The notes beneath the pieces were generated by a model, which saw only the letters and a program-made list of their open reading frames with translations, did not search any database and was not told the DNA's origin. Shown here piece after piece: positions 3,992-58,013 of a DNA stretch of 64,000 nucleotides. The stretch's first letter is position 1. Every line of letters begins with the position of its first letter. Origin of the DNA: Protonemura montana (lineage: Eukaryota; Arthropoda; Insecta; Plecoptera; Nemouridae); NCBI GenBank assembly GCA_947568835.1, contig OX387607.1, positions 14,647,701 through 14,711,700 of the forward strand, in the 5' to 3' direction. The position numbers and the translations under genes are program-made.

Positions 3992-4035
3992 TTTAGCATG
4001 TGACAGAAGATACCAGCACAAATACTGTCCCAAGC
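3992..4035 (-). repeat. Single reverse copy of the 54-bp unit
   Basis: On plus, AGCATGTGACAGAAGATACC and AGCACAAATACTGTCCC match the reverse complement of the 54-bp unit over about 44 bases. It ends directly against a copy of repeat family A. Confidence 0.65.
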
Positions 4036-13178: not shown

Positions 13179-16100
13179 GTACGAACAGCATACATTTTAT
13201 CACGTCCTCACTCACACACACTCATACGCACGAGCCCAATTTAAGCAATCAAAATTTCATATGCAAATATTATTTATTTTCACAAAACCGCGGCTTTGCG
13301 CAAGCAAAATTTGTATTTGTCGCTAGTAATTTTGCGCGTCGCCGATTTCCAGACCTACTCTTCAGGCTGGCAAATTTTCTGTCCCTAATTTACTTTTAGA
13401 ATTAATTTCAACGCCATCTGAATTAAACCAAGAACGTAAAAGCAGAACTTTTGTCACACATCCTGAGGGTCGAGAGTGAAATTGCTGGAAAGACCGCATG
13501 GCTTGTATATGCATTTCATGGAATGGAATGGTTTTTAAAAAGGAGCCTTAGTATTTATATTTTTCAAGTCTGCGATGAAAAGGAAGCACTGAATTAAAAT
13601 AACTTAAAAAGAGCATAGGACCCAGCCAGCTGATCTCAAATATCCTGGATAGAGCATAGGATCCAGCCAGCTGATCTCAAATAACATGGATAGAGCATAG
13701 GATCCAGCCAGCTGATCTCAAACAACATGGATAAAGCATAGGATCCAGCCAGCTGATCTCAAATAACATGGATAGAGCATAGGATCCAGCCAGCTGATCT
13801 CAAATAACATAGATAGAGCATAGGATCCAGCCAGCTGATCTCAAATAACATGGATAGAGCATAGGATCCAGCCAGCTGATCTCAAATAACGTGGATAGAG
13901 CATAGAATCTAGCCAGCTGATCTCAAATAACCTAGATAGAACATAGCATCCAGCCAGCTGATCTCAAATAACCTGGATAGAGCTTAGGATCCAGCCAGCT
14001 GATCTCAAATAACCTGGATGGAGCATTGGATTCAGCCAGCAGATCACAAACCACCTGGATGGAGCATAGAAACCACCCAGCTGATCAAAATTTGAGTCAG
14101 GAAATCCATTCCTAGCAACAGGTAGGAGTCTCTAAGCCCGATGTGTCCCTGTGAATATCGATTCTAATCATAGAGTTTCTTAAAGACGTTTTTAAACTAT
14201 TTTGATCATAAAAGTGGTTGAAATTACAAAAATCACGAAAACTTTTGATGAAAACACATAAAGTAGGTCGGGCTTTTTGACAGAACTCAAAATCATCAGT
14301 GAAAATAACTCATCCCTCCACTTCCAGAACTGTACCCTTGAACACTTTGAATACAGTTTTTAATGTGGAGTACTTTTGGAGAAAAGTCATTCACGTTTTA
14401 ATGGAAGTGGTTTCACGGTGTTTGCTCTAATTTGAAGGTTGTGCAGTTTTAAAAAGGACGTTTCGGCGATGTACGCTTCGCCATCTCCGTTAACTACGTA
14501 CCCCATCAACCAATGGGTCTAAAAACCACTGAAAAATCATTCACACGATAGCTTTATATTTTTATTCGTTGTTCACATAGATACAACTTTTGTAAAAAAA
14601 AAAAAAATACACTCTACCGTTTCACAAATTGAAAACTTCTCGCTAAAACCATTACTACCAAGGAACAAAAATATATATATTAAAAACGTTCAAGTATTCG
14701 TTAACACTGTCAAGCAATTGCAAGTTAAGGCGCCCTAAATAAGACCAGAAAGCATTTCACTTTATGTTTTGCCATGAGAATATTTCCAGCACTTTTCCCC
14801 CTGAAATCTCTTAGCGTTAATGAGTTTCACCAAGTCGTCGCTTGTGGCACCTGTTTTTCAGGCACCGTTTGCCTCTCAGCCATCTGGGGTTGCTACTACA
14901 TGTCCGATGTCGCTTGGACCAAATATCTCACCTCACCAACCATTACCGTTGTTGAAAGCACCGGCTACTCTGTAGCCAACATCCCTTTCCCGGCTGTCAC
15001 CGTTTGCGAAGTGAACAGAGTCAACTGGGAGCGTACTCTCCGCTACCAGGAAAAGCTGAGTGAAATGGATTGCTTCGTATATAAAGATATTTGATATCCC
15101 GATACGTTACAGTGTAACAGAATTTTTATTCGCTTTCGTTCTCTTTCTTATAACGTGTGGTGGAATTTCTTATACCTGTAAAAAGTATTCGCGCCATATT
15201 GATATGGTATAAATAGATTTGCGATCGACAAAGAAAATTGTTGGAAAAACTGTTCAAAGTTGTGCTGGGTATGAAACAAATGGAGAGAAATTCGTTCCGC
15301 TACGGAAAATATTAAATCAAGTCGTTCATCTCGAGGAAGTTTGAAATTGTGTTTGGAAAGATTTGCATGACGACTAGGAGTTTTATCTGCCGAGTGTGGA
15401 TCGTCGGGGTGACGGCATGGCTACGCATAATTTCGTGAGTCGACTAGAGTTGATGCTCTCAATTCGTACGACATTTCGTTCTGCGAGGGAATTTTTTCTG
15501 TTCGCAATTTAATTGAGTTCAAGCACATCGATTCTGAATTCATTGAAAAGGTTTTATTTCGGGCGTAGAATTTTCTGAGTAAATATTTAAATCAAAATTG
15601 AGTACTTTCAAGTGTTTTGTTGCGCTACAAATTAGAAAAGAAAGAAAATCGATATTTATCATAGATAAGATATTAAACGATATCGATTGTACTTCTAAAC
15701 GTCTCATCTGTCAAATCTACTGCGTTGAAGCATTTCACTCAAACACTAGAACTATGGAAACCCTTTAAAAAGAAGCCCGTGCCCGGTATCGGAAAATTCA
15801 TAAAATTGTATTAGTAATTGGCGGGTGAAACAAGGTCGGTCTAAGAAATCTGAAAGCGATCTCGATTTAAACCTGTGAATCCCGGGATATAACCAAGATG
15901 TGGTCTTTACTAACATGTTCACCTCATTTGAAACACAGGTACTTGCCCGATTTAAGTCAGAAGCAGAAAGAAGCCTTCTTCAATCTGGTCGGCGCGTTAT
16001 CAATCGCTGCTTTCGGTGACTTTGACCAGGTTTTGCTCAGCATCAACAATGACACGACTATTTTGGACACCTTGCCCCTGATTAACGTCAGTCATCTCAT

Positions 16101-19100
16101 GTACGAGGTAAGTTAGGCCTGCATCCGGACAAAAATCTCTATAAATCAATATTTTTTGCAAAACTCAAGTGTGCGCTTAGCTACAGTTTTTGGCCTTTTA
16201 CCTTCTAGAATTTAGATTCAAGACGAAAACAGTTATGTGTATGCCAGTTTTGAGCGCCTTGAACCTTGACACTGCCATTACATATGATGACATATATTTT
16301 CGAAGCTGATAAGTCGAATTGAGTGCCCATTAAAGACTGACACCGATCCAAAATGTCACTTTTAACATACACAAACGGCCACAGATTTTCGCGGTATTTT
16401 ACTATTAAAACTTTTGTCAAAAAAACACAGTTGGCCTGCTGTTTTATCGTAAAATATCTCATCGAATCCGATTCATTAGCAAGCCGCGGAAATTAGTTGG
16501 AAATTGTGATGGAAATTGTTTTGAAAATTCCTCGTGGATGCCGCAGGTTCGAACGCGTTGTGAAGACTTCTTCTCGGCCCTTTGTTGGTGGCGAAACAAG
16601 GACGTGCGCTGCTGCGAATTGTTTGAATTGCAAAGATCGGAGACGGGATGGTGTTATTCTTTCAACTCGGAGCTGTCTCTGGAACGCAAGGGGAACGCCA
16701 GCGATGAGAAACGACCACGACGCACGAGCGGGAAAGGCATTTGGAGCGCGCTCAGGGTCAGGATGTTCATAGATCAAAGTAAAATGCCGCCAATGAATGC
16801 CAATACGACGGAGCCATCGATTATCGTGAGTGGACAATTTGTAGACTTTTGTGATGCTTGAAATTTCCGACAGAAATACGTTGCAAGTTGCACGGTGACG
16901 GATTGGTGAAATGTTGTTTGGTTTGGTAGACGGGTCGGTTTTGTTGGAATTGGTTTTGATGGAAAAAAGAACGGGGGAAAGATAGAGGGTGCCCCTTCAG
17001 TTCTCTAGATGAGCTTAGCGATTGACAGGAAGGCTTTATTTGAATGCCAAGAAAGATAAATACACACCATTCGTAGCTAGACTCATGTCTACTATATTTA
17101 ACCTTAGCACTAGTTTTGGAAAAAAACAATTAAACTGTGTTTTTTTTTTATGCAAGTAAAACGACTTATTTTGCCGACGTTTCGTAACTTACGCCTGTTA
17201 ATTCATTAAATACTTGAAAGGTTGTTTATTTTTTGTGATGTTCTTTTGTGTGCTTGTGATTTATTTTGATTAATTTTTTAGAAACCTTTAAAATCATTCG
17301 AAACTATTTTGCAAATATTTTGCCAATAGGTCTTTAATTTTGTCGAATCGATTATAACAGAACAAGAATGCAACTCTTTAAACACGTAATTAAAGCGAAA
17401 CACATTTTGATACTTTTAGCAAACTGCAAATATTTGAGGATTACCTAGAAAATTAGTAACTTAACTCTTGTTGTATTACCAATTTTAAGATATCTGATTT
17501 TTGTAAATATATTTTAGTTAAAAGAAAAACTATTTGAAATGGGTTTTGAATGCTAAGTAAAGGACAACTAAAATGTCCCATAGTTTTTCTTAAAACTAGT
17601 GCTAAGGATAAATCAAGTAGACATGAGTCTAAAAACCATCATCTTTTAGTTCTTTCGATTTACTCTTAAAGGCCTGTCTTTAGTCACAAACAAGAAGTTA
17701 AATATTTCCGTAGCATTATTTACCGTCAGCATGACCTTCTGTAACTTTTGTTCAGTGAAAAAAATGAAATATGATATGAAACAGTTTTTTTTTTTTCAAT
17801 GATAACAATGGTAACAAAAGCTACAGAACAACGGTATCAATAAGCTCATTCTTCAACGAGAGCCATTTCACTTTACCAGATAACAAAAACTGTCAGACGC
17901 ATTTTCCAAGAAAGTTTTGTCAAAAAAATATTATTCTATCTTTGCAACCCTTCTTTGGGTGATAAATTTTCACTCACACAAATAATTAGTTTAAATTTTG
18001 GCACGATTCTTTTTTTTTTGCCAGAGAAAGGCAATTCTGACGCCACAAAATCGTTCAGTCTTTGAACTCGTAAAGGTTTATACGTGCTATGAGTGTGTCA
18101 GCTTCAGCGAGCAAGCAAACATAAAACTAGGTAATATCACATGATTACAATTTTTATAGCTAATTTTTCTAGTCCATTGAAGTTCAAATATGAATGCTGT
18201 GAGCTTTGAGTGCATTTCATTCTCGTCATATCGACTTTGTGTGAGCGTTACGTAGATAGCTTCAAAAACTTGACATGAAAGCGAGTTTTTTGCTCAAAAA
18301 CCAATAGAAAAATACACTTTTTTACCCTCGAAAACATTTATATAAAGCTTGTCAAACGCGTGTTTACAAAAAAAGCCTACATCATGCGTTGGAAAAATTG
18401 TTATTAATGGTTTCTTCGTGTTAATATTTTCCGAACAACTATTCTTAACTTATGTCAAAGTACTTTACCATGACATGCACGCAATGTAGCGGCCTTTTTA
18501 CTTCTCTTGCTACAATTTAATTGTGAAATACTTAAAGCATTTGCTCTTTCAGCTTAAGAGAATAATTTAAATCAAGCACCTTCTGTATTCCTGAAAGCAT
18601 GTCGTCTTCAACTCCCAAGTAATAATACTTCTAGCTATCTTAGCTTGAAAGAGCCATTAGACATCGTAGACTAAATTTTAAACAAAGCTAGACATGCTAA
18701 AATTAAACATGCTAATAAGCCTTTTCACGTTAAGTGGTAGAGAAACTAAAATATAACATGCATTTACACGTAGTTTAAGTAGTTTTTTTTAGAGAAGGTA
18801 ACTGTTTCAAAATGTCGTCATCAGCTTCACTTGCATAAACAATACTGTAAAATTAGTAGAAGCTGAATTAATGACTTGTTTTAGACACCGATATCAAACA
18901 TCTTCCTTCTAAAAAATTATGCCAGCCACACGAAAACACAACACTTGTGTTTGCACCGAACGGTTTGGCGTTTTCGCAACGCCGGTTCTCGTAAGATCAT
19001 CGAAGTTAAGCAACACTGCGCTGAGTCAGGTATTGGGTGGGTGACCATCATACACTTGACCAGTTCTGTTCGGGAGAGATGTTGGAGGGATGAAAGTTAG

Positions 19101-22100
19101 TACAGCAACTTCATTCACCTTGCTTATCAACCTCTAGTCAGTATGGATTTGTGGAATAATCCTGTTGGTCGAGTTGTTTCGTCCTTCGGAAGGGAATTTA
19201 AGCTGGCTATCCCCTCCTCCTTCAACATTATCACCATCATAATAATTCAATCATCACCGACACCATCAGACCAGTACCGCAGGGCCCGTTGTCAAAACAG
19301 TGCGTCGTAAAACCCCACTAGACAATCAAAGTGTGTTTGCATTTTTGTCTGCAAAATAAATCGAAAATCCCGATTTGAGTAACGGAGTCTCTCTCATTAA
19401 AGCTCATTGAAAACATCTTGAAAACTAAATCTTCGAGTGGCTGAAATGTTAAGACGTTTGGAGTGGGAGCTTGTCCTAGAAGCTTCTTTTGTGCTTGCAC
19501 ATGTTCATTTCACATTAAATACATCGACTTATTAGCTTTATTACATTAATTTCCTGCTCAGTGCACTTGTTTCAAACCACTTTGCGCCATTGTCTTGCTT
19601 CACATTCAAGTTGTGTTGTTGAGTCACAGAGGATTCTGTCACTTTTCTTCCTACCTTCCCACTTCACCGTTTCATATCTCCGGTGAGAGGGGCTTGGGGC
19701 CACTGACTATCTCTCTCTCTTCCATTGTAGACTCCAAAATATCTACAAAATCCCTGATTCTAGAAACAATAATAATAATTATTATTATTCAGAATAATAA
19801 TACTTTAAAAATAATGATGATAATAATAAGCTATAAGTCTGGGAAATCTGATTTAAATTGCAAATGCTTGCAATGCTCGGGATGTGAAGTGGTGTGCGTC
19901 ATTTAGAATCAGATTGACTGTGAGTATTCACAGCCTCTTGGTTCTACTCCTTGGAGATCCGTCATTCTCATCAAATACACTAAAATACTCTCAAATAACG
20001 ATATGTCCAAGTAGCTCAATTGGTAAGAGCAACACCCGCGACAGGTGGAGATCGAGGTTCGATTTCCCGTTTGGGCATCAATTTTTGAGAGGTTATTAGT
20101 GTTCCTAATAATAAAATAAAGCTATTTATATTTTAAATCACATTGTTTTGCTCCCAATCATATAAAGAATAGCGACTCCAAGCAATAAACACTGGTAACA
20201 GTTTGACCGGCAAATAGGCAACACGATTGGCCAAAATCGTGTCCAATCATTGACCACAGAACCAGTCCTTACATTTAAAGTTATAATTTTACTATTTTTT
20301 TTATTTGGCCGACAACTGTGTTTTTATCTCTTATTTTTAGAAAGAAAGCAAGGACTTTTTCTAAAGTACGTCAACTTTCAATTTATTTTTCCAGTTTATT
20401 CGATTTAATCCAAGCTTGATGTTTTTCAAAGCTTAGTTCAAAACATGAAATAAAGATGATAAAGTTTCAGATTTAAACTCTCACTGGCAGAACGTTTTAA
20501 TCTTAAATTAGTTTAGATATATTTTAGTTCTAATCTTATACTGGCCCTTCGTAGTACATGAAAGTGATCTTTTTGTCCCATCAGCTGATGGTTCACGACC
20601 CCCAGGCGTACCCCTCTTTCGGCACCTCCATCATTGGCAGCCAGTTCACTCAGATTGCAGTGGTAGCGACAGCATCTTACGCCATCCCCTCCATCCGAGA
20701 CCTGAAGCCGGCCCGAAGAAACTGTCTGTACCCTGACGAGATGACCTTGAGAGGGTTCGGTCAGGAGATGTATGTCTTTGAGAACTGTTTGACGGAATGT
20801 CATCACCGTTACGCGCTCAATTACTGCAATTGCACTCCGCATTTCTTTCCGGAAATAGGTGAGTTGTTTGCGTTGGTTTTTAGTTCGATGAACTTTTTGA
20901 AGAGTTATTTTTAATAGGCGTTTCACCTTCACTTACAAGCTAATTTATATGACATGATCCATAAACCACTCGCCTTCAAAAGATGTTATAAAAAAAATTT
21001 CAATACCCAAACTCACCGCAAGAATTAGTTATGAAACAACTATCATGTGGTAATTACAATCACTATTTTTTTCACCTTTTGTTAGTTCCTACCCTCATTA
21101 AAAAAAATCCGTTCTAAATTTGAATTTCTTTTTCCTTCAATTCAAATATTTATTGGTAATTTCTAGATTAAGCTTATAAGATAACAGTTATCATATCATA
21201 AGCATAGATAATTGTTTGTCAAACTAGCACTAATCACAAGCTTAAGATGAAATTAAACATTTTTACAATAAAATACCTTAACTATATTTTTAACTGCAAG
21301 TTAAAGAATCATCTCTATGGTTACCTCCGGTTATCTTCTGGACCGGATTGTAAAACTGACTCGTTATGAACCAGTTTCTTAATTTCATGCATGCTTGGCT
21401 ACAGCCAATCATAAGATGTTTTTCGTTTGTAAACGGTCTGTTAGTTTTCAAAATTTCCACTGAAAACCCGGCACCCAGAAGCAACCAAAACCAGAAATAG
21501 CATTTAATAAACTAACAAACATTTCCTCCAACTACCAACTTAACCAGAGTCAAACCTTCCCCCATAATGCTAAGCCTTTTCAGAACTAGCAAGCTGCTGA
21601 ACTGTCTTTGTCTTTTCCTTTGCTTTCAGAGGAGTACCGATCTTGTGGAATTCAAGGCATCCTTTGCTTGGCGAGATTCAATGGTAATTAAATTATTGAG
21701 TTGCTAATTGGCGTTTCTCAGTCATTCTGCGGGTACGAAGCCACAAATGCAGAAGCTTGTAACGCCAAAAAGCAACACACCTTCGCTTATAAACTATAAT
21801 ATGGTCTGTGAACGTGAGGATCGCATAAAATAATTAGCATAGCACACTGTTCAAGGTTTCCTTTGCGAAATGCAGACATTAGTGCTGGTAGGTTGTGTGC
21901 TCATCCTAGTGGAAATTATAGCGGCTATAATTCCATTGAATCACACATGAAAATGATCCTTGTATAGATAATATGTAACAATCTCTAGCGTTGCTGTGGC
22001 CTGTGCTAGCAGGATCTACATTTCAAGAGAATGTTGGCTTTTATGCACTGGATTATGGGGTATAGGACACAGTGTTCTGAGTGGTGCATGCAAATATATT

Positions 22101-25100: not shown

Positions 25101-28100
25101 TATACAAATCCAACCAAGCGCAAATCCCTCGGGAACTTTTCTCTCAATGTGTAAAAGCAGACAAACATTGAGATAAATTTCATCGAAACTTGCATCGCTT
25201 CCTTTGCTGCGCTCATAGCACGCGTACAAAAACCCTATTTCTGTTTTCACACGCTTCCAAATTGTGCCGCTCTGAACGAGCGAAGTGGTAGCATTTCGAT
25301 CGCAATTCAAACTCATCGCTGATTTGATTGCTGTTTGAACGTTACTGCCGGGCACGTTGAGTTGAAACCTGGCGCCCATATTTTCATGGTTTCACATGCC
25401 ATGTCCTGCAATTTGCTGGCTAGCAAATAAACCGCTAGTCTAAACGAATTCATAGTCGAACACGAATTCAAGGTTCCATAAACCTGGGTAAATGTTTTCG
25501 AAACGTGACCGAAACTGTAACCCTTTCCGGTTCCACGTCAAATTTCATTCGAAATATACCTACTTTTCTTTTTTCATTGTAGTTATAATGCAAGTATTGG
25601 CCAATTTTTTCACTGTTATCATACTTTAAAAGTTTTTAAAGTGTAAATAATAAGGATATTATTGAAAATATATTCCAAATTCTATATTATTGTAACTACA
25701 AATAAATTGTTTTAATTGCATGTATATTCCAAAGTATTTTCATCTATTTGATACTGGAAACCCTGGCCTGGCATTCGCTGGGTCACCTTATATAAACGAA
25801 AACTCTTGATTTTACAATTTTTTAAATTAATTTATATGATTGGATTCGATTCTGAAAGCAGATTCTAGCTGATGTCAAGTCAAAGTTTTCAGACGTCAGA
25901 TAAAGATTCTGTCAGACTTCAAAGTTGGTATTTTATTCTTGAAATCGGGCAGATCGTCGTCAAACGTCGACTCAAGACGTCCATGTTGACATAAAATATG
26001 CAAACTCTACATTGGGGACGCAGTCAGTCTTTCGAAGGTCGAAATTTATTCAAAAAATTCTAAAAAATAAAATAATCCTGGAAACGCTGTGGTCATGGTT
26101 GCTAATATGTATTTCTTTCATTTCACATATGGTCTTCTTCACACAAAATCTGCAATAATATGTGTATTATGATCCTTTTTAAAAATTCCATTCCGTTTAC
26201 GTTTTAAAAAATATCAAATTCTGAATTTTAAGCAACCCTATGTAGACACACTCTGCCATTTAACATTCAAATCTTTGTTTAATGATTCAATCTTTGACCA
26301 GTTGGACCTGTGCCAGCATAGACGACATGAAATATCAACGCAGTCATCACAGTTTGGCCGTTGATTAATTTTATTTCATGCACAAGTGAAAAATGCATCC
26401 ACCATTCATCATCAGCTATTAATTAAGCCTTGCAGACCTGCGTCTAGACAGGCCCGCATGTAATCAACGCCTCTATCCCTTTTGTCGTCGTAAAAGCCCA
26501 GAGCTGGTCTATTTGCATCCCTATTCGACTGCCCTTGCCCATTCACTATAAGGTCACACTAGGACAAGCTAAGGGTAGGACAACCCTTCATGGTCGCCAG
26601 ACGATGATCAGCCGCAATTCAACTGCAAATGCAAATGGATGTCTGTAGCTAGTCGCGCTTCTGGGAGGGCGTCGGCAAGGGGATGGGGGGGGGGGAATCG
26701 ACTTCATTCTCTCATGGCCATGTATCCGTTAGGAACGTCTTCGGAGCACAAGATTTCGAAGTGGGTTTTGGGGGGAGGGTTATCATTAGTATAGGCGTAC
26801 TACCAGAGCGGTAATGATTAACTGTCTTCGCAAAATGGCTGCCAAATAACAACTTTACCGACAAAATGGAGGATACTACTCGAAGGAGTCACCGTCGTTA
26901 CGAGTGTTAAGAAATTTAGTTTAATTATTTCTTGCAGATTACTTACATTTTAGTCTAGTTTATGCTTAAATAATCTTTATAATTAATAACGATTTTAATA
27001 CCTCAAAATAAAGAGGACGGCTGCTAGCGCCATCAGGTGGCACCTACCACCACTCAGTGTTATCAGCTCGTTTGCTTAGCAAAACTTTTAACATTAACGC
27101 TGGCCCCTCTGACAATGCCTATTAACTCGATGGTAAAGGCATTTTAGCAAAAAAAAATTTAAAACACAAAGAAGTAAAAATATGTTAAGCATACATATAA
27201 GTACACAGTAAACTTCCGCCAACTAGTGAAAGGGAAAAGGGGGCGAGATGCAGAATCATGGAATTTGACTATAAAATTGTAATGATTTCGGAATTTCTTC
27301 TAGTTTACAAAACTTTCAAATTGCCGACTTTTCGTCATATTTTTGGGGTATTGTCATCTTTTACCTATACAGTGGTATGGGCCACAATGTTGGAAAAACT
27401 AGCTGTATTTTACCTGTTTACCTAGAACTTCTCATTAAAAATAATTACTACTTCGCTTTTCATTTAATTCCTCTCTACAGTTTGATGCGACTTACGACTT
27501 TTGTTGTTGTTGCAGCTTCAAGCGATTTTGTCAGAAATGTCTAGAAAAAGTAATCTTGTTTTCTGGGGAAATGCTTATTAGGCATTCAAGTCCAACGCTT
27601 TATTTTAGTAAGACCGGCTGGGATACCATATTTGGATGTTTTTTGTTAAGCAAAAATAATAGAAAAAATCGTAGTCGAAGAGCACAAACAAAAGCTTTGC
27701 GCTTTTCAGCGATTCGTTCAAGGTGCCCAATTATTTTTTCTTTAAATAACAAAATTGGAAAATCTCGCGTAAACACCATGTAAGCAACTTCAATCGAGAC
27801 AACAGTTGGTAATTGAAGAAATTCATTGCAGTGATCAACGTTTCTTAGTTTGGGGAACATACTTTTGTCAGGGGACAGACCCGAAGTGTTCTAAAAACCA
27901 ATTACCCCAGAGATTTGTATTTGTATTTGTATTTTGTTTTATTTCCTTTTTGATCACATACATGATATTGGACACGTCAGTTAAACAATGCAATATATTT
28001 ACAATATACAATGAATACAATGTGCAGTTTGAACACAACAGTCAAAGCTTGTAAAATTCATCCACCTTGTAAAAGCTTTTTTCTAAAAGAAAAGATTTAA

Positions 28101-31100
28101 GGTTTTGTTTAAAACTAGTTGTGTTATTTTTAATATTGATGGGCAATGCGCTATACAATTTTATACCCGCGTACAGTGGCGACCTTGTGTAGTACTTATG
28201 CCTATGCATCTTTGTTTTTGGGTTTTGTTTTGTTCTTGTGTCATGTGAGTGTGTTAATTCCCCCTTGTGTGCATTTGTTTTTACAACATACATTATCACC
28301 TGATAAATATAAATACATGCTAAAGTCATTATGTTAAAACGTTGAAATAAAGTCTTGCATGAATCTTTTATGTAGACCTCAGCTGTTGGATTTCTGCTCG
28401 CTTTGGCCATATACCGAACAGCTCTTTTTTGCAGTTTAAATAGTCTTTGGGTTTTTGAGTGGTTGCCCCAGAGTATGATTCCGTAACTAAGTTTTGCTTG
28501 TATGTAAGCATGGTATACTAGCTTACTTGCTGCTAGTCCGGCCACCTCCATTAGTCTTTTTAGCAATAGACAACTTGACGCAATTTGTTTGCTTATTGTG
28601 TCGATGTGTGTGCACCAGTCAGTACCGTCACCGAGGTGAAGACCAAGAAACTTCGTATTCGTTTGTAGCGCGATACTTTTCCCGTGTAGTTTAATGTAAG
28701 GGCTTGTGTCAGTCTTTTCCTTGGCCGTGTTTCTCATGCAAGTTGTTTTCGCGTCATTCAATAAGATGTCATTTTGGTTGCACCAATTATCTAGAGCGCT
28801 TACTGCCTTGTTTGCTTGTTCTATTAAGATTCTCTGGTCCGGGTTAGATAGAAAGTGAGTGGTGTCGTCCGCGAAGAGTGTCAGTTCTCCCTGTTCTACA
28901 CTTTCGGGAAGGTCATTTGTAAATAAAATGAACAGCAAAGGCGATAAAACCGACCCCTGGGGGATTCCGATGTTAGTTGTAGTTTCTTGAGATATGTAAG
29001 TTCTTCCATTACTGTATATATGTACCGATTGTCTTCTATTTTTTAAGTATGATTCTATCCATTTGTTTCCTATCCCAGTTATCCCAAGCCTTTCTAGTTT
29101 TGAAAGCAGCCGCCTGTGGGAGATTAAATCGAATGCTTTTTTAAAGTCATAAAATATTCCAATCGCTGGTTTGTGGTTGTCACGTGCTTCTAGTATGTTA
29201 TTTACAAATCCTGCTACCGCCGTCGTTGTGGATTTTCCTCTTGTAAATCCATGTTGGTTACTACTTAGCAGCTCATATTGAGTGGTAAAATTTTCCAGCC
29301 TTTTATACATCGCAGTTTCAAATATTTTAGCAAAAGTGGAGAGTAAGGCTATTGGCCTATAATTACCGATTTCCTCATTGTCCCCCTTTTTATATATGGG
29401 AATGATTTTTGCCTCTTTCAATTTGGTTGGGAAGCATCCTTCCGTGAATGATGCATTAATAATGTGTGAGAGCGGTCCCATTATGTTTGTACCTATGCTT
29501 TTGACGATGTTGCCAGGTATGTCATCATAACCGGTTGATCGTTTTTTGCCTATTTTGTTGATTATTTCTAGAAATTCTTTTGCTTCAATTGGCTTAAGGA
29601 ATATTACTTTATTACAACGTTTGCTACCTTTAACTTCCTGTAATTTCTCTTTCGTCAAGTTTTTTGTCAGGTCGTTTACGGTTTTATCGAAATAGATATT
29701 GAATAATTCTGCAATTTCCTGATGTGATGTTATTTCAGTTTCCTTAATCTTTAGCGAGATATCCTTCCTAGCGTTGCCCTTGCTATTTATTTTTGAATTT
29801 ATTATATGCCATGCAGCTTTGCATTTGTTCGGTGCATTGGTTACTATGTTGTTATTATGGGTTCTTTCTGCTTTCTTACATGCTTGTCTGTATTTCCGTT
29901 TGGAGTCTTGATATTTTCTGTTACCTACCTCACTTATTTTTGAGTAGTTATAGTCTGATTGTACGTTGTTTGCTAGTGTTTGCAGTTCTGGTGTATACCA
30001 TGGTCTCTTTGGCCCATTTCCCAATTTAGGTTTTATTTTGTGTAGACCTAGTGGGAATGCTTTATTAAAATACTTGTTGAAAATTTCCGTAAATTCTTCA
30101 AACATATCATCTACTTTTTCGTGTTGGTAGACGGTAGTCCAACTTTCCTCCCTTATGAGTGCTTTAAAGAGCTCCCTGTTTTTTGTGTTAAATATACGTT
30201 TTGTTACAATTGGTGCTTCTTCGGGTGGCCTCTCGCTATTCCATAAAACTATTTGTGTGTGGTGGTCTGCTACATGCAGATTTATGTTTTCTATTCTAAA
30301 GATGTTGTCGTTGTCAGTGAAGATGTTGTCAATACATGTACTTGTGGTTTGAGATTACCTGGCCGTAAAGTTGGAGCTAGAATGCTGTTAATTGAGTATG
30401 TTAAAAAAATATATATACATTTTGAGACAACAGTGTTATTTTTTTTAAATTATCTCTCCGGTTGCCAAAATGAACCCCAAAAATGCACTGTTCACTAAAG
30501 TTCAGGTTATCGTATATAACAAAGTAAATACAATTTTGATGAGTAACATCAAGAATCTCATCGGTTACTAATGGATGGAGAGGAAAGAAAACGAAGGAAA
30601 GGAAGAAGAGGAAGGGTCGAAATTTAATTTGGTCTACAACATACGCGATTATTACCATTCTTCCCTTTTAGTTAAGTCTCAAGTATTTCTGGAAAGTTTA
30701 AAATGTTTCCCGAATTATGCACTTTGATTTTGTGACTTTAGTCTCCTGGAGAATCTCAAATAACCTGGATAGAGCATAGGATCCAGCCAGCTGATCTCAA
30801 ATAACCTAGATAAAGCATAGGATCCAGCCAGCTAATCTCAAATTACCTGGATAGAGCATAGGGTCCAACCAGCTGATCTCAAATCACCTGGATAGAGCAT
30901 TGGATCCAGCCAGCTGATCTCAAATAACCTGGATAGAGCATAGGATCCAGCCAGCTGATCTCACATAACCTGGATAGAGCATAGTATCCAGCCAGCTGAT
31001 CTCAAATAACCTGGATAGAGCATAGGATCCAGCCAGCTGATCTCACATAACCTGGATAGAGCATAGGATCCAGACAGCTGATCTCAAATAACCTCGATAG

Positions 31101-34100
31101 AGCATAGGGTCCAGCCAGCTGATCTCAAATAACTTGGATAGAGCATAGGATCCAGCCTGCTGATCTCAAATAACCTGGATAGAGCATAGGATCCAGCCAG
31201 CTGATCTCAAATAACCTCGATAGAGCAAAGGGTCCAGCCAGTTAGTAAAAAATGAAGTCAGGCAATTTATTATTGGTTTAGAGCTGAACTAGGTTTGAGT
31301 CAAAGAACAAAAAAATTAAATTAAGAGCGTGGATCCTTTTACTGTAGAGGTACTATTACAACAATTAGTTTTTTTTCAATACAAACAAAACACGCGTTTG
31401 ACTGGTGAGATTTTTGGTTCAAAATAATATTGCTCTTATATTCAGCATTCCGTGAGGATATTGTAAATTACCTTTAGCACGAGATGGAGATGGAGATGAA
31501 GATTATAAGGAAGAGAGAGACAGACCAGCGGTATGCTAAAAAGACCAAAAGTTTAAGCAAACGAATAGATAGTTGAAGATAAAATGGTTTTGACTCACGC
31601 AAGCCATACGTTGAAACTTTGCAAGAACAACATTCCACACCTGAAGGCCCCGGTCCAGTGGATTTGTTTATACCGCCTATCCAAACGGAAAACGCGCTGC
31701 AATTGTGCTTTCCGCCGCAAGACGATTGGTCGAAACTCGTGGAAATTTCACTGCGCTATTTAAAGTGAATGTTAGTTTTGCCATCTCTGCTAGAGGGTGT
31801 TTATTTACAGCGCTTCAGACAATTTGCATTTGGTAATTTCATCGGAAATTGTCTGATGCTATGATTAATTTGCGACCTCTGTTGCTATAAAATACGAACT
31901 GTGTTTATTCTTGACAAAATTGCTGCAACTTTGCACGACCAATGCTAATTGAATACGTTGATACGTTTTTAATCTTGCTCTTTGTACTGGGGTTGGGGTT
32001 AGACATTACCTTAGAAAACTCGGACCTAGAAGTGAAGCCTTCCCTAGCGGTGTAGGTGACCGTAGGTACCCTAGATTTTTTTTCCGTAACCGAAATGAAC
32101 AGTTTTAAAATTAAAATATTTTTTGACACCCTCCATTTCAAAACTGCTCCAAAAAGCTCCAAAATCACTTTAAAAATCACTCCAAAGTTTGCTTCTATAT
32201 ACTAGGCCGATTAAAATTTACAGGTCATCTAAGAACGCTATTTAGAGATAATCTTGATTCAAATAAATAGAAGAAAACTAAGGAATTTGAAAAATTCTGA
32301 TTAATCTACCTGTGTAACCTCTACTCTACCTCCACCTTTGTTACCAGATCCAAGAACTTTGTGAAGCTGTTTTGAACGAGAGAAATGCATAATGTAAAAT
32401 AACAGTAATACAAACTTTAAAAAATAACGGATTTTCTCCGAGATCCGACTACAATTGATTGGTTTCCTTCCTCCGACGCAGAATCCAAAAAGAAAAAGAC
32501 CGACCGGAAACCGAGATGCAGGTGTTTCTCGACATCCACTTCCGGCACCCGGTGATCGTGCGCTACCGAACGGAAGTCACCTTCGACTGGATCACGTTGA
32601 CAAGTAAGTATGAGTCAGCTGACCTGAGACACAACCCTCTTCATTCATCTGCAGCCAACATGCACAGTAGATGCACGGGGACAGCTGAGAGTGGAATTAC
32701 AGACAGATTTATTCTGTTTAAATTGTTGGGGTTTTTATGTTGAGTGCTCTTTTATTGAAAGTTTGCAGTTCTAGAAAACTTTGGTGAGCCAAAGTTTCGA
32801 TAGATACACTGGTGACCGATATCACCAATGCCGGGGGTGATTTTAACCGGTGCAGTAATAATGAAACACGTGTATGTTGTATTTTACATACTCAAACATT
32901 TAGACAGCAGATTAAGAACGAAATTAGTCAATTTTGACAATATGATCGCTTCGAAACAAATTATTCGGCTGCATGGAAATAAAAAATGTATTTACTGGAC
33001 AACGTATTGCGATCCCCAACACGGTTTAAAAGTTACCCCTCCCCCAGCGCCCGTCTAGGTTGAGATATTAACCGGCAATTTTGAGCAGAGAGAAACAGGT
33101 AAATCCATTTTGTGTTTTTATTTCATTATTAACATTCTATATTTCTGAATGTCTACTAAAAGGTAAACTTGAATGGGGCCTTCAAACCTACTTTAAGTGA
33201 CGTTGGGGAAATGGTACAGGTGATACTGCCATTTACCGTTTTCAGAGAAAAATTGGTAATTGATCTTGGCCGAACCTTTGTCCTTTTTGTTACTTCACCC
33301 CTTCATAAAAGAGCCGTAAAAATGTAAAATCACACGTATCATCAATAGTGGGCTCTGCAAGTATTTTAAAAATCATTCTGTTCCAAGAAATATCAAGTTT
33401 TTTTACATTTTTCCAGAAATTTCTTGACCAGCTTTCTTCCCTTTCCAGTTCGTTATATCTGTGCTAGATTCTTCACTCTCCATTGAACTGAATTCTTCTA
33501 TGCACTATCAGAATTTAATGCGATACAGCAGAACTACTTCATTCGTTGGAGATGTTGGGATGCGTTACAAACATAAAATACGTTATTCAATAAGGTGTTT
33601 ATCTTTATTAACGACGCATTGAAAACACGAGCATACTCCGTAATCCATGATGGCACACAACGTACTGCTCCAGTTTTTACCATTAAACATGAGTCACGAG
33701 TTCCCTGACCTCCCAGACTGTTGCTTCAGTCCCTGGTTTGGCCACAAAATCCAGCGTGTTTTAGATTTCAACCTCCGATGACTCCTTGCGTTGCATCATA
33801 GACCTGCGCTGTCTGTTAGCCAAAAGAAGCGGCGCGTAGTTGACTTCGTCGAGACGGAAGTTTTCGTTCAATGACGGTCGGAAGCCGCTTGGCTCGTCCC
33901 AAGCTTTTCTGCAATTCTTTGCGATCCATTTGGCTTCTGATTTCGTGGGGATCCTGCGAAGAGGTCGGAAATTTGCGAATAAAGATCCAATGGCTGTTCG
34001 GGAACTTTGTGCTTTTGATTTTTTTGGCTACCTTTGATGGTTTCAATAAGAAACAGACAATGGCGCCTCTGTGTTGCTCAAACTCACTTTCAATGATGCT

Positions 34101-37100
34101 TTGACGATGTTTGGTGTGATGGCATCATTGAAACTTGGGTATCAATTTTGCCAAACAATTGGTGTAAGGTGGTCCATACCGTTAACTTCTTCTTTTGTGC
34201 AAAATCTTAGGTTTCGAATATCGTAAGAATTGAACCAAAGTCGTGAAAGAGGAAGTTAGAGAGAGCACATTTTAGGGCAAGAAATCCTGTGGGATTTCTG
34301 TATTTGTCTTATGGAAAAAAACATACAAAATTGTAGTGAGATACCCAAAACTTTCGATCCCCGCTAAAAAATAAACTGGGATAACTGTCAGAGGTCCCAG
34401 CCAACGACCTTAAAGCTAGAGAATCACTAGAAAATAACTATTTTTGTATACTAAATTTAACTCCAACCGTTTTTGGAGCGAAAAAAAGCACCTAATAATG
34501 TTTCCGGTGGTCGCCGAAGTGACACATCTGGTCTTCGGATTATAAAACCCATCGCCCGTGTCATAGCACCCTTCGGGTATTGTCCTTGTCGGCTGCTGCT
34601 GCGTCTTCAATGACGTGCAGACAGGCCTCAGACCGCATTTAATCTCCTGCTGGAACCTCCTATCCGGAGTCTTCGAACTGCAGTACGCCCAGTCAGTGAG
34701 CTCGTACACCAGACCGTCAGGGAATGTGTAGGTGGAGGGTACCAGCTTGCCGTGGGTGAAAAAGCCTTCCACCCTGCCCTTGTTTGGGTAGGCTAGGGTG
34801 CCGAAGCTGTCGAATCGACCGTCGAGCATGGCGCCTTCGTAGATAACACCTGTTTGGTGGGGTCAGGGAAGAGATAGTGATACCCTGCAGTGTCTTTGAA
34901 GCGAGGCTTTGTTAATTGACTTATTGGTATTTACTATTTGGTAACAAATCAATGAACATTGATTTGTTGTGTTACGTGAGGCATTTGTTTAAAAATTGGT
35001 TACGTTTATGTCGTCTTATGGCGCCGTCAAATGAGAAGGTGATGATACGGATGATGATGATAATGGCAGACATAACCTAAGCTAGAAATAAGAATCAGAC
35101 AAACAGAATCCAGTGCCTGCAGATAGCCTATTCCTGTTGAAAAGCACTTAAGGAACCACTGGCTGAATGTCCTTTCCGATGTACGGTACAACCCAAACAA
35201 CAGGATACCTCCACAAATCCATGCTGTTTGAAGGTGGTATAACAAAACGAATGAAGTTATTCATTTCATTCTATCAACCTCTCTCCCGAATAAACGTTCG
35301 GTAGCGGGAGCGGTAACACCTGATCGAGGGCTGTACCTCTTGCTTAACTGAGGTTTTCACAAAAGATCCATTGTCCCCCGTTCGACACCCGTTCGATACG
35401 AAAATAAATACAGTTTACAAACACATTTGCTTACCATGAGGCATCGTGTATGAACAATCCCCCTCCATGCCGATCGGGTCTACTTGTCCCACGAAAGAGC
35501 TTCCCGTGCAAAGTTCACGCTCTTCCTGTTTCCTCTCGATCGACATCTCGGACTGCTTCAGCTTCTGGATGACCTCTACCGAGCAGGTAGCCCCGCGGCG
35601 CTTAGAAATCACCTTGTTCCAATCGCCCCCCATGATGTTTCCGCTGTCTTTCCGCCCACCGCGACCTAAGAACTGGTCCATCTTCACCTGCTGCCCACTG
35701 GGACTGATAAACACTTCAGCTCTTTTTGATACACCTGACTTGATCTGATTTCCACTAGCGCTTGATGGAACTGGTAGGTTCAAAGATTGGTGGCTACCAG
35801 CTGTGATTGTTGCCCCACTACCGGCAGCAAATACTCTTGATCCTCTCATCCGATGGCCGCTGGTTGTGCTGGCAGCAAGGCGATCTTTGTTGAAAAGGTA
35901 GCTGTTGCCTCCGGTGAGGGATCTACCCATGGTGCTGGCCACTTTTACACCCAATCTTGACGCGAGTCGCTCCTTGAAAGTGAGGCGACTGCTAGCGACA
36001 GCATGGATTGCTTTTTCTTCAGTTGCGGGCTCGGAACCATCAGCGCTGGTATCATGTTCACTCCGCTCTTCTTTTGTACTTTCTTCTTCGTTTTCGCGTT
36101 CTACCGGTTTTTCGTTCTCTTCTACCTGTACATGCTTGTCACTATTTGTTCTTTCTTCTCTAATCATTTCCAGTTTTTCCTTCTCTTCTCTGATCTCTTC
36201 TAGTTTTTCCTCCTCTTTTCTGCATTCTTCTAAATTTTCCTCTTCCTTGGTTGCGGCATCTTCTTCCTCTACTTCTTCCATGATCACGTTTTCTTTGACC
36301 CTCTCCGAAAGTTCGCCGCTCGCCACGTGCGTGGCACTGTTTCTCATTTCAACAGACTGGGCCTTCATTATTTAGAAATGTGTGTTTCGATTTGAGTTAC
36401 GATTTGCGAGTATTTAATAGGTTAATAAATATATAAATATAAATAAATAAACTAATTTGACTAGTTACATTCTGTTGTGTTTTCACAAACGCGAGGCTAA
36501 TCTTTCTACGAAACCCGTTCATTTCCGTACATCGTGTCACTTTAGTAATGACTTATATCTATGGAAACAAAACTGGTGACTTGACAATCTGGCAAATAAA
36601 AACGATTATTACAAAGATTTTTTTTAGAAATGTTTCGTCGTGCACTTCACAATGCACAGATACAGAGGACAGTTACGAGGTGGGAAGTTCTGGAAGATTC
36701 TCGGATGTCCTGGGAGGTTCTGCTGGCAAGATGGCAAGACTTACTCCAGTGTATATCTATGGTTTCTTAAAGGATCGAGGTTTTAATGCGGTATATAAAG
36801 TTATAGGGATTTAGTTATCTGAAACTTGAAATGTGCCAACCCGATAATTTTGCTACAAAAAGAAGATTTCAAATCATCTTAGGAAACTAGTGCAATGGTA
36901 TTTTTTTCTGTCTTTTACCAATCCAAACCGTAACTCTGCTATGGCAATTTTTAAATTGAATTGCAGCATGGGGCAGAAAAAGAGCATTCCAGCAATACCA
37001 TCAATATTTTGTAATCTTGCAAGACACATTTTTCTTAAGATGCATTCAAGTTTATTATATTGACCAAAAGCCATAAATCAACTTGTCAACGATCTAACTG

Positions 37101-40100
37101 ACGCTTATCCGCTATCCACTTATGACGCTAAACATCCGCTTGCAGATCTCTTCTCTAGTTTTCATTTCTTCAACGCTTATTTGATGGTGTAAAATGGATC
37201 TCCGCCGCTTCTCCATGAGCAACGGCGCGTAGTTGACGTCATCTTCTGTGAAACTATCGCGTGCGTTGGGCCGGAATCCTGCGTTCTCGTCCCACGCTCT
37301 TCTACAATATTTCATAATCCAGCTAGCCTCTGTTTCTGTTGGTATTCTGCAACAGTTCGCACGCCGTTTGTAACAACTGCTCAATCTCATTTCCTTTCCG
37401 AGAACACGCTTCTATCGAATTTTTGGTTAGACTGATTAACATTCCAAAATAAGAACTCGGATTAGGATGAAATCTTATTTAAATTGCAAACGCTTGCAAT
37501 GCGCGGGTAAAAAAGAACTCGGAAATCTCGAATCGTCTGGTTTCTCAAGAAATACAACTCACCTCAAAACTGTATACCGAAAAAACTCGTTGTAAGGTTT
37601 TTTGCGTTTTTTTTTTAACAATTCCAATACCTTCCAAATATGTTTGCTATTGATTTGCAAGAACACGCTCCAAAAATCCTGATACGTCCATTCCAAAAAC
37701 ACACCTGATTATCTGTCCCGTTCTCTCTGACGTGACACACCTCGTCTTCGGGCTGTAGAACCCATCGCCAGTGTCATAGCATCCTTCCGGTATTGTCCGC
37801 GTCGGTTGCTGCTGTGTTTTCATCGTGGTGCACACCGGTCTCAGGCCAAACTTAATTTCCTGTTGGAAGCGCCGGTCGAGTGGCAGGCATGAAGAACAGT
37901 ACTTCCAGTTGGTCTGCTCGAAGACCAGGCCGTCGTCAAACGTGTACGTGGCAGGTGTGAGCGCTCCGTGGTGGAACATGCCGTCGACGCGGCCGTGGCT
38001 AGGGTAAATTACCGTGCCTACGCCGTTAAACTGGCCGTCGTGCATGTCGCCATCGATTGAAACGTCTGTTTGGAAACGCGGACAACTTCTAGTTAATGGA
38101 TCATTTGTTTGTGGTGTTTAACGATGCGCTGCTGTGCTAACGGACCTCTCTGTCTGTCTGTTTGATGATGATGATGATGATGATGTCTGATAAGTGGGTG
38201 GCGATAAATTTAGCTTTGCCGAGAATGGAGGAAGGCAAAATTCGGTGCCGGAAGGTAGCCAGCTCATGTCGAAGAGCGCCAAGGATACCAACAGGTACCC
38301 TTGGCCTGAAACCCCTTCCGAAGGACGGTACAACTAAAAGAAGATTGTTTTTTTCTTCTGATAAATGCTATCAATAGGTTAATACGCCAGGTGAATGAGA
38401 CGCTGTTGTACTGACACTGTTTGTCGGGTGTACGAGTGGGTGTTCAGAACAGTTCAATCTCGGCACAATGGCAAATTAGTTGTATTGTACTTCACTGGCT
38501 AAAACCAAGCCTGGTTCGCAGGAAATTTTGATCGGTAAACATTTTGATTTCAAGCAAAATATTTTCGTGTCATTTGAAACTTGTGTTACCGATTCAAAAG
38601 TCAAAACATGCGTAACGCACAGCTCGCAATCCATACTTAATTTTTTTTTTTTTTGCTTCACTTTACAGAAAGTGTGTAACTATTCATTAAATCCCAAGCC
38701 ACAGTACTGGCTTAATTTCGTGGGTCTTGCAATTTAATTGAAAGCTGGATGACATGAATTGGCTCCTTGAGCAGAGATGGTCTTAATTCAGTAAGATGAC
38801 CGCTGGAGCTCTATATGGGGTCACTAAAAGCGGAGCTCAACATAATATGTGTTATTAGAAAAAGAATAGATCACTACAAAGTATTGCAAAACAACAGTCA
38901 GGAACGGTTCATTTTTCAATCCGCACATGATTTAAAATTTACCCTGGACGCGTTCCCCACGGAAATCACTTCTCAATTACCGTGCTCCATAGAGTAAACG
39001 CACTCCCCCTCAATACCAAGCGCGTCGACTTCGCCACGAGCGAAACTCCCTGTGCAAAAGTGACGTTCCTCTTTGTGAACGACCGCACCGAACGTAGGCT
39101 TCAACCGCGAGATGACCTCGACGGAACAGGTCGCCCCACGGCGTTTCCTCGAGATGACCTTCCTCCAATCTCCGCCCATGATCCCGCCATCTTTGTTTTG
39201 TTCAAAGCCCAGTTCAAAGCCTAGTTCAGTGACTTGCTCTGGTTTGCTACTCGTTGTTCTGAGAATAGCGTTCGATGATATGGTCACATTCGTTAAGTTT
39301 GAATGATTGCTATGCGCGTTGTAATTCATTTTGACGGTATGTTATTTGTATTTTCTGTTGGTGTGTGATTTATTATGAATCTTCAAAGATTTCTCGATAA
39401 TTTTGAAAAGTGTGTAGTTTGAGAATGAGTATAAATATCCAAGTATGAATTGAAGTAGTGTTTTAATTAGTACAGCCAGTGCACGAAGGGTAGTTGGTGT
39501 TGGTTTTGCCTGTGTTTCAGGGTGTTTGTGCTAACTGGCGAGCTGCACTTTTCCATGGAAACATTCCTTGTACATAACCCAGGGGGTGTAATATTGCTCG
39601 TAATTGTTCATTTTATTCTCACATAAGATTCACTGATGGAATGTGTAAGTTGGTCGAGTTTCATCGTCAATCATTGCGGTCTAAATTCTGTAAAACACAA
39701 AAATGAGTTCTAATTTTATTCTAACTCATTATTTTCGTGTTAAACAGAACGTCAAATACAAGTTTCTTTCAAAGAGTTTCTTTCAAAGCATGCATTTGAT
39801 GTAATGTGCACTGACCTGCTTCAATATTTGTTTACTTCAACGTCACTGAAATAACTTTGACTGAAGTATTTTTAAGTCTATCTGACAAATGATAGAACGA
39901 AAGAAAGCAAAGCGTTTGTAACGAGAATAGGTAGTATATACTGCCTAGAACTTGACAACATTTTCATTTTTACAACAACACCCTTTTTGTGATTTTTTAC
40001 ACATCTAATTCTCATCTATATTTTTTTATTTTGCACATCTCATCTAATGGACAATTTATCTAAATGCACGATTTGAAACATCAGATGTCCTATTTTCCTC

Positions 40101-40576: not shown

Positions 40577-41036
40577 ATTCAGCATAGCACGCTGAAGTAA
40601 CTTCGGTTGACGTTTCAAACGTACAATTAGTTGATTACGAGCGACATATTTCAATTGAATTCGCTGTGGATTGTTTGTTAACTTTGCAATCGCAGAATTG
40701 GTTCCAAAATTCGATCCATTACAAATTTCGTTAATCTCCTCTGTCCAGTCCGTGACATGGCTATACTCCGTTCAGAGAAAGAACATCCTTTTCCGGCAAA
40801 GGCACCACCGGTCGCTTCGGGGTGACATGTGGAGCAACTGTCATTGTTTTTAAATTATCTCCGCTGGTGTTGTCATTTTTCTTTGCTGTAAAGCTTTTGT
40901 CATGCCGAGATTGTTTTGTTTCAAGTTATTTTAACAATCCTGGGAATTATTTGGTGGGTATAAGTATTACTAGACCCCGTCACTGAAACCAAAACTAAAA
41001 TTATTTCATAAGTTAAATAGGTTCATAAGTAGTAAT

Positions 41037-41467
41037 TCTGGGGACAGTCTTTGTGCTGATATCTTCTCTAACTGGCTAGACTGTAGCAATCCTGGGGACA
41101 GTCTTTGTGCTGGTATCTTCTCTCACGGGCTAGACTGTAGCAATGCTGGGGACAGTCTTTGTGCTGGTATCTTCTCTCACGGGCTAGACTGTAGCAATGC
41201 AGGGGACAGTCCTTGTGCTGGTATTTTCTCTCACGGGCTAGACTGTAGCAATGCTGGGGACAGTCCTTGTGCTGGTATCTTTTCTCACGGGCTAGACTGT
41301 AGTAATGCAGGGACAGTCCTTGTGCTGGTATCTTCTCTCACGGGCTAGACTGTAGTAATGCAGGGGACAGTCCATGTGCTGGTATCTTCTCTCACGGGCT
41401 AGACTGTAACAATGCAGGGGACAGTCCATGTGCTGGTATCTTCTCTCACGGGCTAGACTGTAACAAT
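41037..41467 (+). repeat. 54-bp tandem array (8 units)
   Basis: Unit holds GGGGACAGTCTTTGTGCTGG, TATCTTCTCTCACGGGCTAG and ACTGTAGCAATGC. Units differ at few positions; one unit has lost a base. It begins 460 bases after the stop codon of the channel gene, so it could fall in the 3' UTR if that is long. Confidence 0.93.
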
Positions 41468-51344: not shown

Positions 51345-51941
51345 TTGACACAGCAGTGCTCTGGAACTGGCCATGCGGCACTGGTTTAATGGCGTTGGTG
51401 AATGAGTGGATAGTTATGATGATGATGAACTTTTCCTAGCCTAGGAAAGGAAGAAGAAATCCGGTGCCGCTACGAGGCTTTCTCCCGTCAAAAAAAACCT
51501 AGGGGACCACCGGCTTAAACCGTCCTTCGTCACTTACGAAGGACGGTACAATGCGAGCAACAGGATTCCTCCACAAATCCGTGCTTTCGAGAGGTTGATA
51601 AGCAAGGCGAGTGAAGTTGCTGTACTAACTTTTATCCCTCGAACCTCTCTCCAGAACAGAACTGGTCATGTGTATGATGGTCACCCATTCAATACCTAAC
51701 CCAGCGCAGTGTAGCTTAACTTTCATCCCTCCAACCTCTCTCCCGAACAGAACTGGTCATGTTTATAATGGTCACTCATCCAATACCTAACCCAGCGCAG
51801 TGTTGCTTAACTTTCATCCCTCCAACCTCTCTCCCGAACAGAACTGGTCATGTGTATAATGGTCACTCATCCAATACCTGACCCAGCGCAGTGTTGCTTA
51901 ACTTCGATGATGTTTCCTACAGGCTAAACCGTTCGGTGGGA
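51345..51941 (-). mobile_element. 5S-SINE with a tandemly triplicated promoter head
   Basis: Minus orientation. Tail and body at 51345-51620 resemble the other copies (CCTTCGTCACTTACGAAGGA, ATTCCTCCACAAATCCGTGC). The head segment with the 5S promoter (on plus: CAATACCTAACCCAGCGCAG, TGTTGCTTAACTT) is then present three times with a period of about 91 bases (the phrase ACTGGTCATG at 51661, 51752 and 51843). The outer end AAACCGTTCGGT at 51926-51937 matches the normal element start. Confidence 0.82.
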
Positions 51942-55675: not shown

Positions 55676-57762
55676 TTTCCAATTTTTATCACACAAATAG
55701 GTAACGACAACAATCTCAACTCCTTATCTTGCAAAAAATGTGATAAGATTGCTAAGATTTTATATCGTTATTTGATATTAAAGGAGCCATCAGCTTTAAA
55801 TGCTCTAATCGCAGATGGTCGATGAACGTTCGTTTCCCCGAAGATAATGGTCTTAAACGCTATTACCTTTCAACATGATAGCGTCGTGAAAATCGAGGAT
55901 AAAATCAGCTGGAGGCTCACTCAGGATTCGTTAGATGGAGCTCAATATAAATAATACTACTTCATAAACTTTATCAAAGCGCTAAAAGTGTCGTTAACGT
56001 TGTATCGATTGGTGTAAGTGAGACATCAATTATATGTTCTTGAATATTGAGTCAAAAACCGAAATAGCATAGCCGTTTGGCCTAGTGATCAGTTTAATTG
56101 CTGATCTATTTTCTTTCAAATCTATCATTCGCTAACGAAATTCACTTTTGAAATCGTTCTAAAAAAAGATGGACGGTTTAATAGCCTCGTTTGTGCACAT
56201 CTGTAAGAATGTCGATCGTAAATTTCCGTTTCATGTTCACAGGAGGTCTAAAAATTAAAAAGCTAGCACATCAATGTTTCAATGTTGAGTCTGCCAAAAG
56301 GCAAAAGAGAGTGTTATTTCTATTTATAATTTTCACACGCTCTCCATTCGTCGGATGATTATTTGAGTTTTGGTTAAGAAAATAGACATGTCTGCTTGGC
56401 TCTTAACGAGCGCGTGTTTTGTGGCCTGGAGTTAATGTCAACCAAAGGTTCGCGTTCAAAGGCATGTCACTTTATCAGCTGGTCAACGGCTAGACTGTTC
56501 TCTTTTCAGAGATCATTAAGTCAACGCGTTTTTAACCATGATTTGTGTTTGCGTTTAATAATAGGTACGCGTGACGGTTTTGGGTTATTTGGTAAATTGT
56601 GTCTATTAAATATATCTGACAGTTTTTTTTTGTCAACAATTAAGTTCAAGGTCGTCACACTGACAGTATGAAACCTAAAATAACTGTAATATCTTTTTTA
56701 ATACATTTAAAAAATACACTAAATTTGTTTAAGCAATTTCTGTATTCTGATTTATTAATGCTGTTGTCTGCTAGGATCACATTTATTGGGTCGAATTCCA
56801 ACAAAGCCTCAAAGTGGTAATCGTGGTAGAATTTTTAAATTGTGTCCCATTGTTTGACCTTCAGACCTTGATCACTGCGAATTCAAACTTTGAATCTATG
56901 ACAACACCGTTTTGGAACACATCCAAGCTCACAGCCATCTAGATTCTAGAGAACAGCTGTTTTTGAGAAAGTGGCCATGAATTAGTCAGACTTGGCAGTT
57001 TCATTTGTTTATTACAATTGAACTTGTCCCCGATCCATGCTAATATTTGCAAACATCGCATTGGAGAGACCAACACTGTGACACCCCTCACAGAATAGAA
57101 TAGTACAAGAGTACAGTCAAGTCAATAATCGTTACTCGAAAATAGAGTTTTTTCTTTTTAGAAACGACCGGAATCAAGAATCTCTCCACATCGGTAGCCT
57201 CCAACAAGGAATGAAACGAAAAGACTAAACGCCACTCCATATTTATTGATGCAGACACAATAAAAATAGAAATAAGAATTTCTCTGCGTTTTGAAAATAT
57301 TTTCCAATCTGATATCGAGCAGTCTTGCCTCACTGAGCTCCCCTTGCCGAGAGCAATATAGATTTTCTGCCTTGTGCCACTTACCGTTCATCTACGATTA
57401 ATTCCGTTGCCGAGAAGGGCTAAGTCATTGCCTGTATAGGGCTAATTAGCCGGTAGTTCCAGAGCAATGTCTGGTACTTGTTCGACTTGTGATTCTTATA
57501 ATGAGCTTAGTTTGAGTGAAGTTTCAATGTACTGAGTTTTCCATTATCACGTCACGGCGATTGTTGTTAGTACGTATATGTACATATTGGCGTGGACGAC
57601 AGGTGCATTTTCCTGTATGGAAGATTTTCTATGGCCGCATAATAATCATTGGCATTTCAACTAGGTATGTTATTAAGTTACAATACCACGTTCTTTGTTG
57701 GAATCATTTTGCATCAATTCGAAGAGTGGAACGCTATGACTGATATCAAAACATTAATTAGT

Positions 57763-58013
57763 GAGGTTTAATGACAAAATGTTTTGACTATGGACGCTGT
57801 GGCACTGGTCTATTAGTGGATGATGACAAAGGATGATGATGTTCTAACCTAGCCTAGAATGGAGGAGGGAAAACCCGGTGCCGGCACGTAGCCCACTCCT
57901 GTCGAAGAGCACCAAGGGGACCACTAACTTAACGTCCCTTCCGAAGGACGGTACAAAGCGAACAACAGGATTCCTCCACAAAATAGTGTCGAGAGGTTGA
58001 TAAGCGAGGTAAA
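57763..58013 (-). mobile_element. 5S-SINE, 5'-truncated
   Basis: Minus orientation: GGCACTGGTCTATTAG, GATGATGACAAAGGATGATG, TAGCCTAGAATGGAGGAGGG, CCGGTGCCGGCACGTAGCCC, CTTCCGAAGGACGGTACAAA and GTCGAGAGGTTGATAAGCGA. The 5S head is missing. It lies about 0.9 kb downstream of the sNPF receptor stop. Confidence 0.75.

Follow-up and report, generated by a model that had tools for sequence, protein, structure and literature searches.

We analysed a 64 kb window from Protonemura montana (Plecoptera, Nemouridae; GCA_947568835.1, OX387607.1, positions 14,647,701-14,711,700, forward strand). The window is eukaryotic and of animal type, with a MORN5-matching ORF, a peptide-receptor GPCR, and ASC sodium-channel exons, as well as 5S-related and tRNA-type repeats. 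In the PDB, the ORF at 37647-38117 (minus strand) matches two chains that carry the name MORN repeat-containing protein 5, with E 1.6e-30 for the better one. A paralogous MORN5-like stretch occurs at 34416-34862 (minus strand) and is 70.9% alike at the DNA level over 381 aligned columns; the PDB search covered the 37647-38117 stretch. Between this ORF and the next open stretch (37112-37411, minus strand) lies a short insertion, c1, whose position fits a predicted intron of the MORN5-like gene, in agreement with a preliminary description of this sequence that had placed it in an intron of a MORN5 paralogue.

The window also contains a long open frame at 28042-30354 (minus strand) with an RVT_1 domain (E 1.3e-36), which is of LINE type and has ACAAAT-type repeats in its 3' flank. 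In a separate family of repeats, two copies carry a 5S rRNA-like head according to Rfam; the family is found at 1497-1735, 18955-19195, 4726-4883, 51367-51914, 35107-35290, 38218-38415, and 57759-58013, related stretches included; the copy near 51.6-51.9 kb contains a 91-bp unit repeated 3.1 times.

Insertion c1 has a near-identical counterpart, c2, elsewhere in the window (Table 1). The two share a 44-base core (37464-37507 in c1 and 8363-8406 in c2) that is identical at 43 of 44 positions, and each is enclosed by an exact direct repeat. Coordinates and sequences of both mini-insertions, of 51 and 60 bp, agree with the preliminary description, and the insertions are real and recent. On the plus strand of the window, the c1 repeat occurs only at 37451 and 37513 and the c2 repeat only at 8351 and 8423. 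Among 30,000 random places outside listed tandem repeats, 12 had an exact repeat of at least 11 bp in the geometry of c1 and c2, so the direct repeats lie far beyond chance; with tandem repeats included, the count was 179 of 20,000. The c1 repeat can equally well be taken as 15 bp long with a single mismatch (37447-37461 versus 37509-37523, 93.3%); if this is adopted, the insert is 47 bp long (37462-37508) and has no A/T tail. The left flanks of c1 and c2 have AAATAA(G)AACTC in common, but an equal score was obtained for 113 of 5,000 random flank pairs, so this is not significant as a target motif.

Table 1. Insertions c1 and c2, their target-site duplications, and related core and SINE sequences in the 64 kb window
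Feature	Position	Strand	Remarks
c1 left target-site duplication	37451-37461	no strand	AAGAACTCGGA, 11 bp, exact
Insert c1	37462-37512	- (strand of preferred reading)	51 bp; element proper probably 37462-37508
c1 right target-site duplication	37513-37523	no strand	AAGAACTCGGA again
c2 left target-site duplication	8351-8362	no strand	AACTCTGCTATT, 12 bp, exact
Insert c2	8363-8422	-	60 bp; core plus 16 nt matching the 3' end of SINE-associated c4
c2 right target-site duplication	8423-8434	no strand	AACTCTGCTATT again
Core copy c3	19843-19881	-	36/39 identical to c1; directly 5' of a tRNA-type SINE
Diverged copy c4 (core and tail)	2199-2253	+ (matches c2 on the opposite strand)	at SINE 3' end
tRNA-type SINE copy	19882-20118	+	tRNA-like stretch 20004-20079
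SINE copy	1986-2212	+	runs into c4; SINE similarity ends at 2212
Third copy of the same SINE family	9125-9298	-	5' side without significant match to c1 core

Two further sequences in the window are related to the core, so that the family considered here comprises four members. An ungapped scan of both strands (127,920 places) with the 40-nt c2 core returned c2 itself (40), c1 (39), c3 (35), and c4 (26), and the best match beyond these was 24/40. The diverged core reported earlier ahead of the SINE at 19.84 kb is c3, which is beyond doubt (gapped score 33, compared to a highest value of 16 among 60 shuffled-core maxima). The c4 core alone is not significant, since 13 of 60 shuffles scored as high as its 15 in the gapped scan. 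However, c4 also matches the stretch behind the c2 core in 15 of 16 positions, in register, and then continues into a SINE. A match of at least 14/15 to the 15 nt behind the c2 core occurs at three of 127,970 places (the c2 position, the in-register c4 position, and a third place), and c2 core and tail together score 25 against c4, compared to a best window score of 21 over 100 shuffled queries. Thus, the outer stretch of c2 is family sequence that leads into a SINE in c4 rather than a private tail, contrary to the earlier statement that each copy has its own A/T-rich end, and the inserts do not resemble an independent unit with such a tail.

In a four-way alignment, c1 and c2 lose similarity exactly at the duplications and c3 and c4 within approximately 9 nt of the same border; on the opposite side, the copies differ from one another. 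Neither c1 nor c2 resembles c3 or c4 as closely as the two resemble each other. An HMM trained on all four sequences recovers them, by construction, and then nothing better than E 0.44. We found no duplication at c3 itself (1997/2000), around the 2.0 kb SINE together with c4 (976/2000), or around c4 alone (1270/2000). No outside copies of a 22-base core pattern or a 20-base SINE pattern were present in viral_contigs or genome_contigs, virus and prokaryote collections in which absence is weakly informative. A text search of the literature with short stretches gave no match to the letters of the core palindrome; a match of a 13-base stretch in one plant-gene paper was taken as chance.

The SINEs adjoining c3 and c4 belong to a tRNA-type family with three copies in the window (BLAST pairs 77-79% identical). 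Continuity of the core with a SINE is seen through c4 and c3, c1 and c2 being truncated at their own loci. The core lies on the 5' side of the SINE in c3 and at the 3' end in c4, facing outward in opposite directions. A core at the 3' end of the 19.8 kb SINE is doubtful (824/3000 shuffles reach the score of c1 and 88/3000 that of c2), and the 9.1 kb SINE has none at the corresponding end (1973/3000 for c1 and 678/3000 for c2). By eye, the 5' edge of the latter copy looked like a promising place for a core, but this was rejected, with 81 to 1,405 of 3,000 shuffles reaching its score depending on query and gap cost (651/3000 and 1405/3000 for the c1 core); one high score there had taken in the SINE body. 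When inverted, the 3' edges of the 2.0 kb SINE (1/3000 shuffles) and of the 19.8 kb SINE itself (9/3000) resemble the 5' edge of the 19.8 kb SINE, these being two tests among others that were not significant. Of the duplications flanking the SINEs, that of the 9.1 kb copy is strong (0/2000), and those of the 19.8 kb (94/2000) and 2.0 kb (392/2000) copies are weak; other choices of ends gave nothing.

A 7-bp stem is present in c1, c2, and c3 and lost in c4. It is no more stable than shuffled sequence (z -0.28 and -0.08), on either strand, and the idea of a special hairpin was rejected; in the whole window there are 52 stems of 7 perfect base pairs that have loops of 3-5. Nor do c1 and c2 appear to be SINEs in their own right, as ARAGORN and an Rfam search at gathering score call no internal pol III promoter-type gene in either insert; the closest tRNA-like sequence is that within the 19.8 kb SINE. 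Across the whole window, the Rfam gathering score is reached only by two 5S rRNA matches and a single tRNA match, all of them outside c1 and c2. A relaxed Rfam search, limited to 37301-37700 (the c2 region was searched at gathering score only), returned three matches, all below gathering score, and a small-RNA origin of c1 was rejected; the match overlapping c1 is a snoRNA with 18.6 bits compared to the 50 needed (E 4.4).

Based on these observations, c1 and c2 probably lie on the minus strand as extremely 5'-truncated copies (~47 and 62 nt) of a SINE-like retroposon, of which they retain the 3' end, and target-primed reverse transcription would have inserted them. The duplications vary in length (11 and 12 bp in the two copies), and each insert combines one fixed and one variable end, ends that are set by duplications only in c1 and c2. 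Because this combination is the signature of target-primed reverse transcription, with the fixed end corresponding to the 3' end of the RNA, the minus-strand reading fits best. Read in this direction, the inserts would have one fixed 3' end in common (..TTTCATCCTAA or ..GTTCATCCTAA) and would end ..CATCCTAA, and their differing 5' ends would mark the points where copying stopped. A LINE enzyme would start at the 3' end of the element RNA, reverse transcription would break off after ~50-60 nt, and the cDNA would be joined to the target, producing duplications of 11-12 (or 15) bp. The stop in c1 would lie just beyond the hairpin and CCCGCGC, and that in c2 15 nt further, within the AT-rich 3' part of the SINE. 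As the source, we presume a SINE of this kind and not a LINE that shares its 3' end. Of the target-primed origin proposed earlier, the duplications of that type and the recent insertion hold up, but the private, variable A/T tail does not, that of c2 being family sequence; the abortive end of a SINE, listed then as one option, comes near to our reading with its orientation reversed.

Several observations count against the truncated 3' end. Given the position of c3, 5' of its SINE, a single 3' tail does not explain c3 and c4 together; the opposite placement indicates either a SINE with inverted ends or a separate event giving rise to c3. In addition to its insignificant core, c4 has lost the stem. 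The doubtful or missing core at the 3' ends of the 19.8 and 9.1 kb SINEs, the lack of a duplication around c4 with or without its SINE, and the unremarkable stability of the hairpin weigh in the same direction. No partner LINE with the core was found in the window, where the LINE at 28042-30354 lacks it (at most 24/40 outside the four places). Truncated LINE copies are given as 100-1,000 bp long (excerpt of PMC3747384), a range that the inserts do not reach.

Other origins account for part of this evidence. The nearly equal extent of the two recent inserts, the end of c1 right after the core, and the close resemblance of c1 to c2 would suit a free-standing minimal retroposon of ~45 nt on the plus strand, with two small hairpins and a variable tail, that multiplies by itself. 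However, the supposed c2 tail is common to c4, in register, two of the four cores touch SINEs, and no pol III promoter-like gene is called in the inserts, leaving this element unlikely. A free-standing minimal hairpin element and a retroposed small RNA, both suggested in the preliminary description, are likewise weakened because two of four window cores run into tRNA-type SINEs, which is close to what that description had named as evidence against its own proposal, namely genome-wide copies that all extend into a long SINE. Alternatively, the inserts could be plus-strand, 3'-truncated copies of the 5' end of a SINE RNA, similar to mammalian tailless retropseudogenes, which an excerpt of PMC5322556 describes as 3'-truncated RNAs with duplications but without a tail, in L1 systems. 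c1 and c2 are like these in being short RNA-piece inserts without poly(A) between duplications, and c3, on the 5' side of its SINE, is oriented as they are. A 5'-complete, 3'-truncated structure fits c3 but not c2 or c4, since beyond the core c2 follows c4, at the SINE 3' edge, and not c3, at the 5' edge; this sequence past the core points to a 3' end. Together with the lack of a match between the c1 core and the sequence 5' of the 9.1 kb SINE, this makes a 5'-end origin quite unlikely.

The outward-facing core at opposite SINE edges, as well as the inverted-edge similarities of the 19.8 kb SINE, could also be reconciled with a core that forms the terminal inverted repeats of a SINE-like element, c1 and c2 being solo ends generated by a transposase or by unusual retroposition. 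We consider this very unlikely: by inspection, neither c1 nor c2 contains terminal inverted repeats of its own, their exact duplications differ in length (11 versus 12 bp) instead of having the fixed length of a DNA transposon or MITE, and none of the copies within the window shows the core clearly at its two ends. It is also distinctly improbable that the source is a SINE-type retroposon with the same hairpin module inverted at both ends, possibly forming an RNA panhandle, whose module alone can insert as a 47-62 bp element; if so, it would be among the smallest mobile retroposon units.

Among known systems, the preferred 3'-end reading most closely involves LINE/SINE pairs. 5'-truncated LINE copies have been described, as have LINE enzymes that require a 3' stem-loop common to a partner SINE (excerpts of PMC3747384 and PMC4176376); in truncated human L1, microhomology occurs at nearly 80% of 5' junctions (excerpt of PMC2912911). 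As in the stringent-type pairs UnaL2 and ZfL2, as far as those excerpts describe them, c1 and c2 have, on this reading, a fixed 3' end with a predicted stem-loop nearby, a variable 5' end, and duplications; the predicted stem is no better than shuffles. Unlike these pairs, c1 and c2 are much shorter than the truncated LINE range, and the window contains neither a partner LINE with their 3' end nor terminal short repeats. The adjoining repeat family resembles insect tRNA-derived SINEs (e.g., those in an excerpt of PMC8010984) in its tRNA-like stretch and several copies; by comparison, c1 and c2 lack a tRNA-like part, and the upstream repeat part and the core at both edges are unusual.

c1 and c2 probably represent ordinary debris left by a family of retroposons. 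If the 3'-end reading is correct, they are useful chiefly as recent markers of an active SINE/LINE pair, as well as a case of reverse transcription stopping within ~50 nt. If instead the core is mobile alone or forms both SINE ends, it would help to establish how small an RNA can be and still be inserted by a LINE enzyme. The points of note are the very small size of the inserts and the inverted placement of the core.

The window contains several other repeats. A 41-bp tandem unit forms three arrays at 551-802, 13610-14086, and 30753-31241, with ~6, 12, and 12 copies, respectively, that are roughly 86-93% alike. A 54-bp tandem array of 8.1 copies is found at 41029-41467, and a related single unit occurs inverted 37 kb away at 3987-4035. 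The stretch at 17078-17639 has inverted ends (17078-17124 versus 17631-17584, 89.6%) and is related to 63457-63652 at the end of the window; it looks like a MITE-type element.
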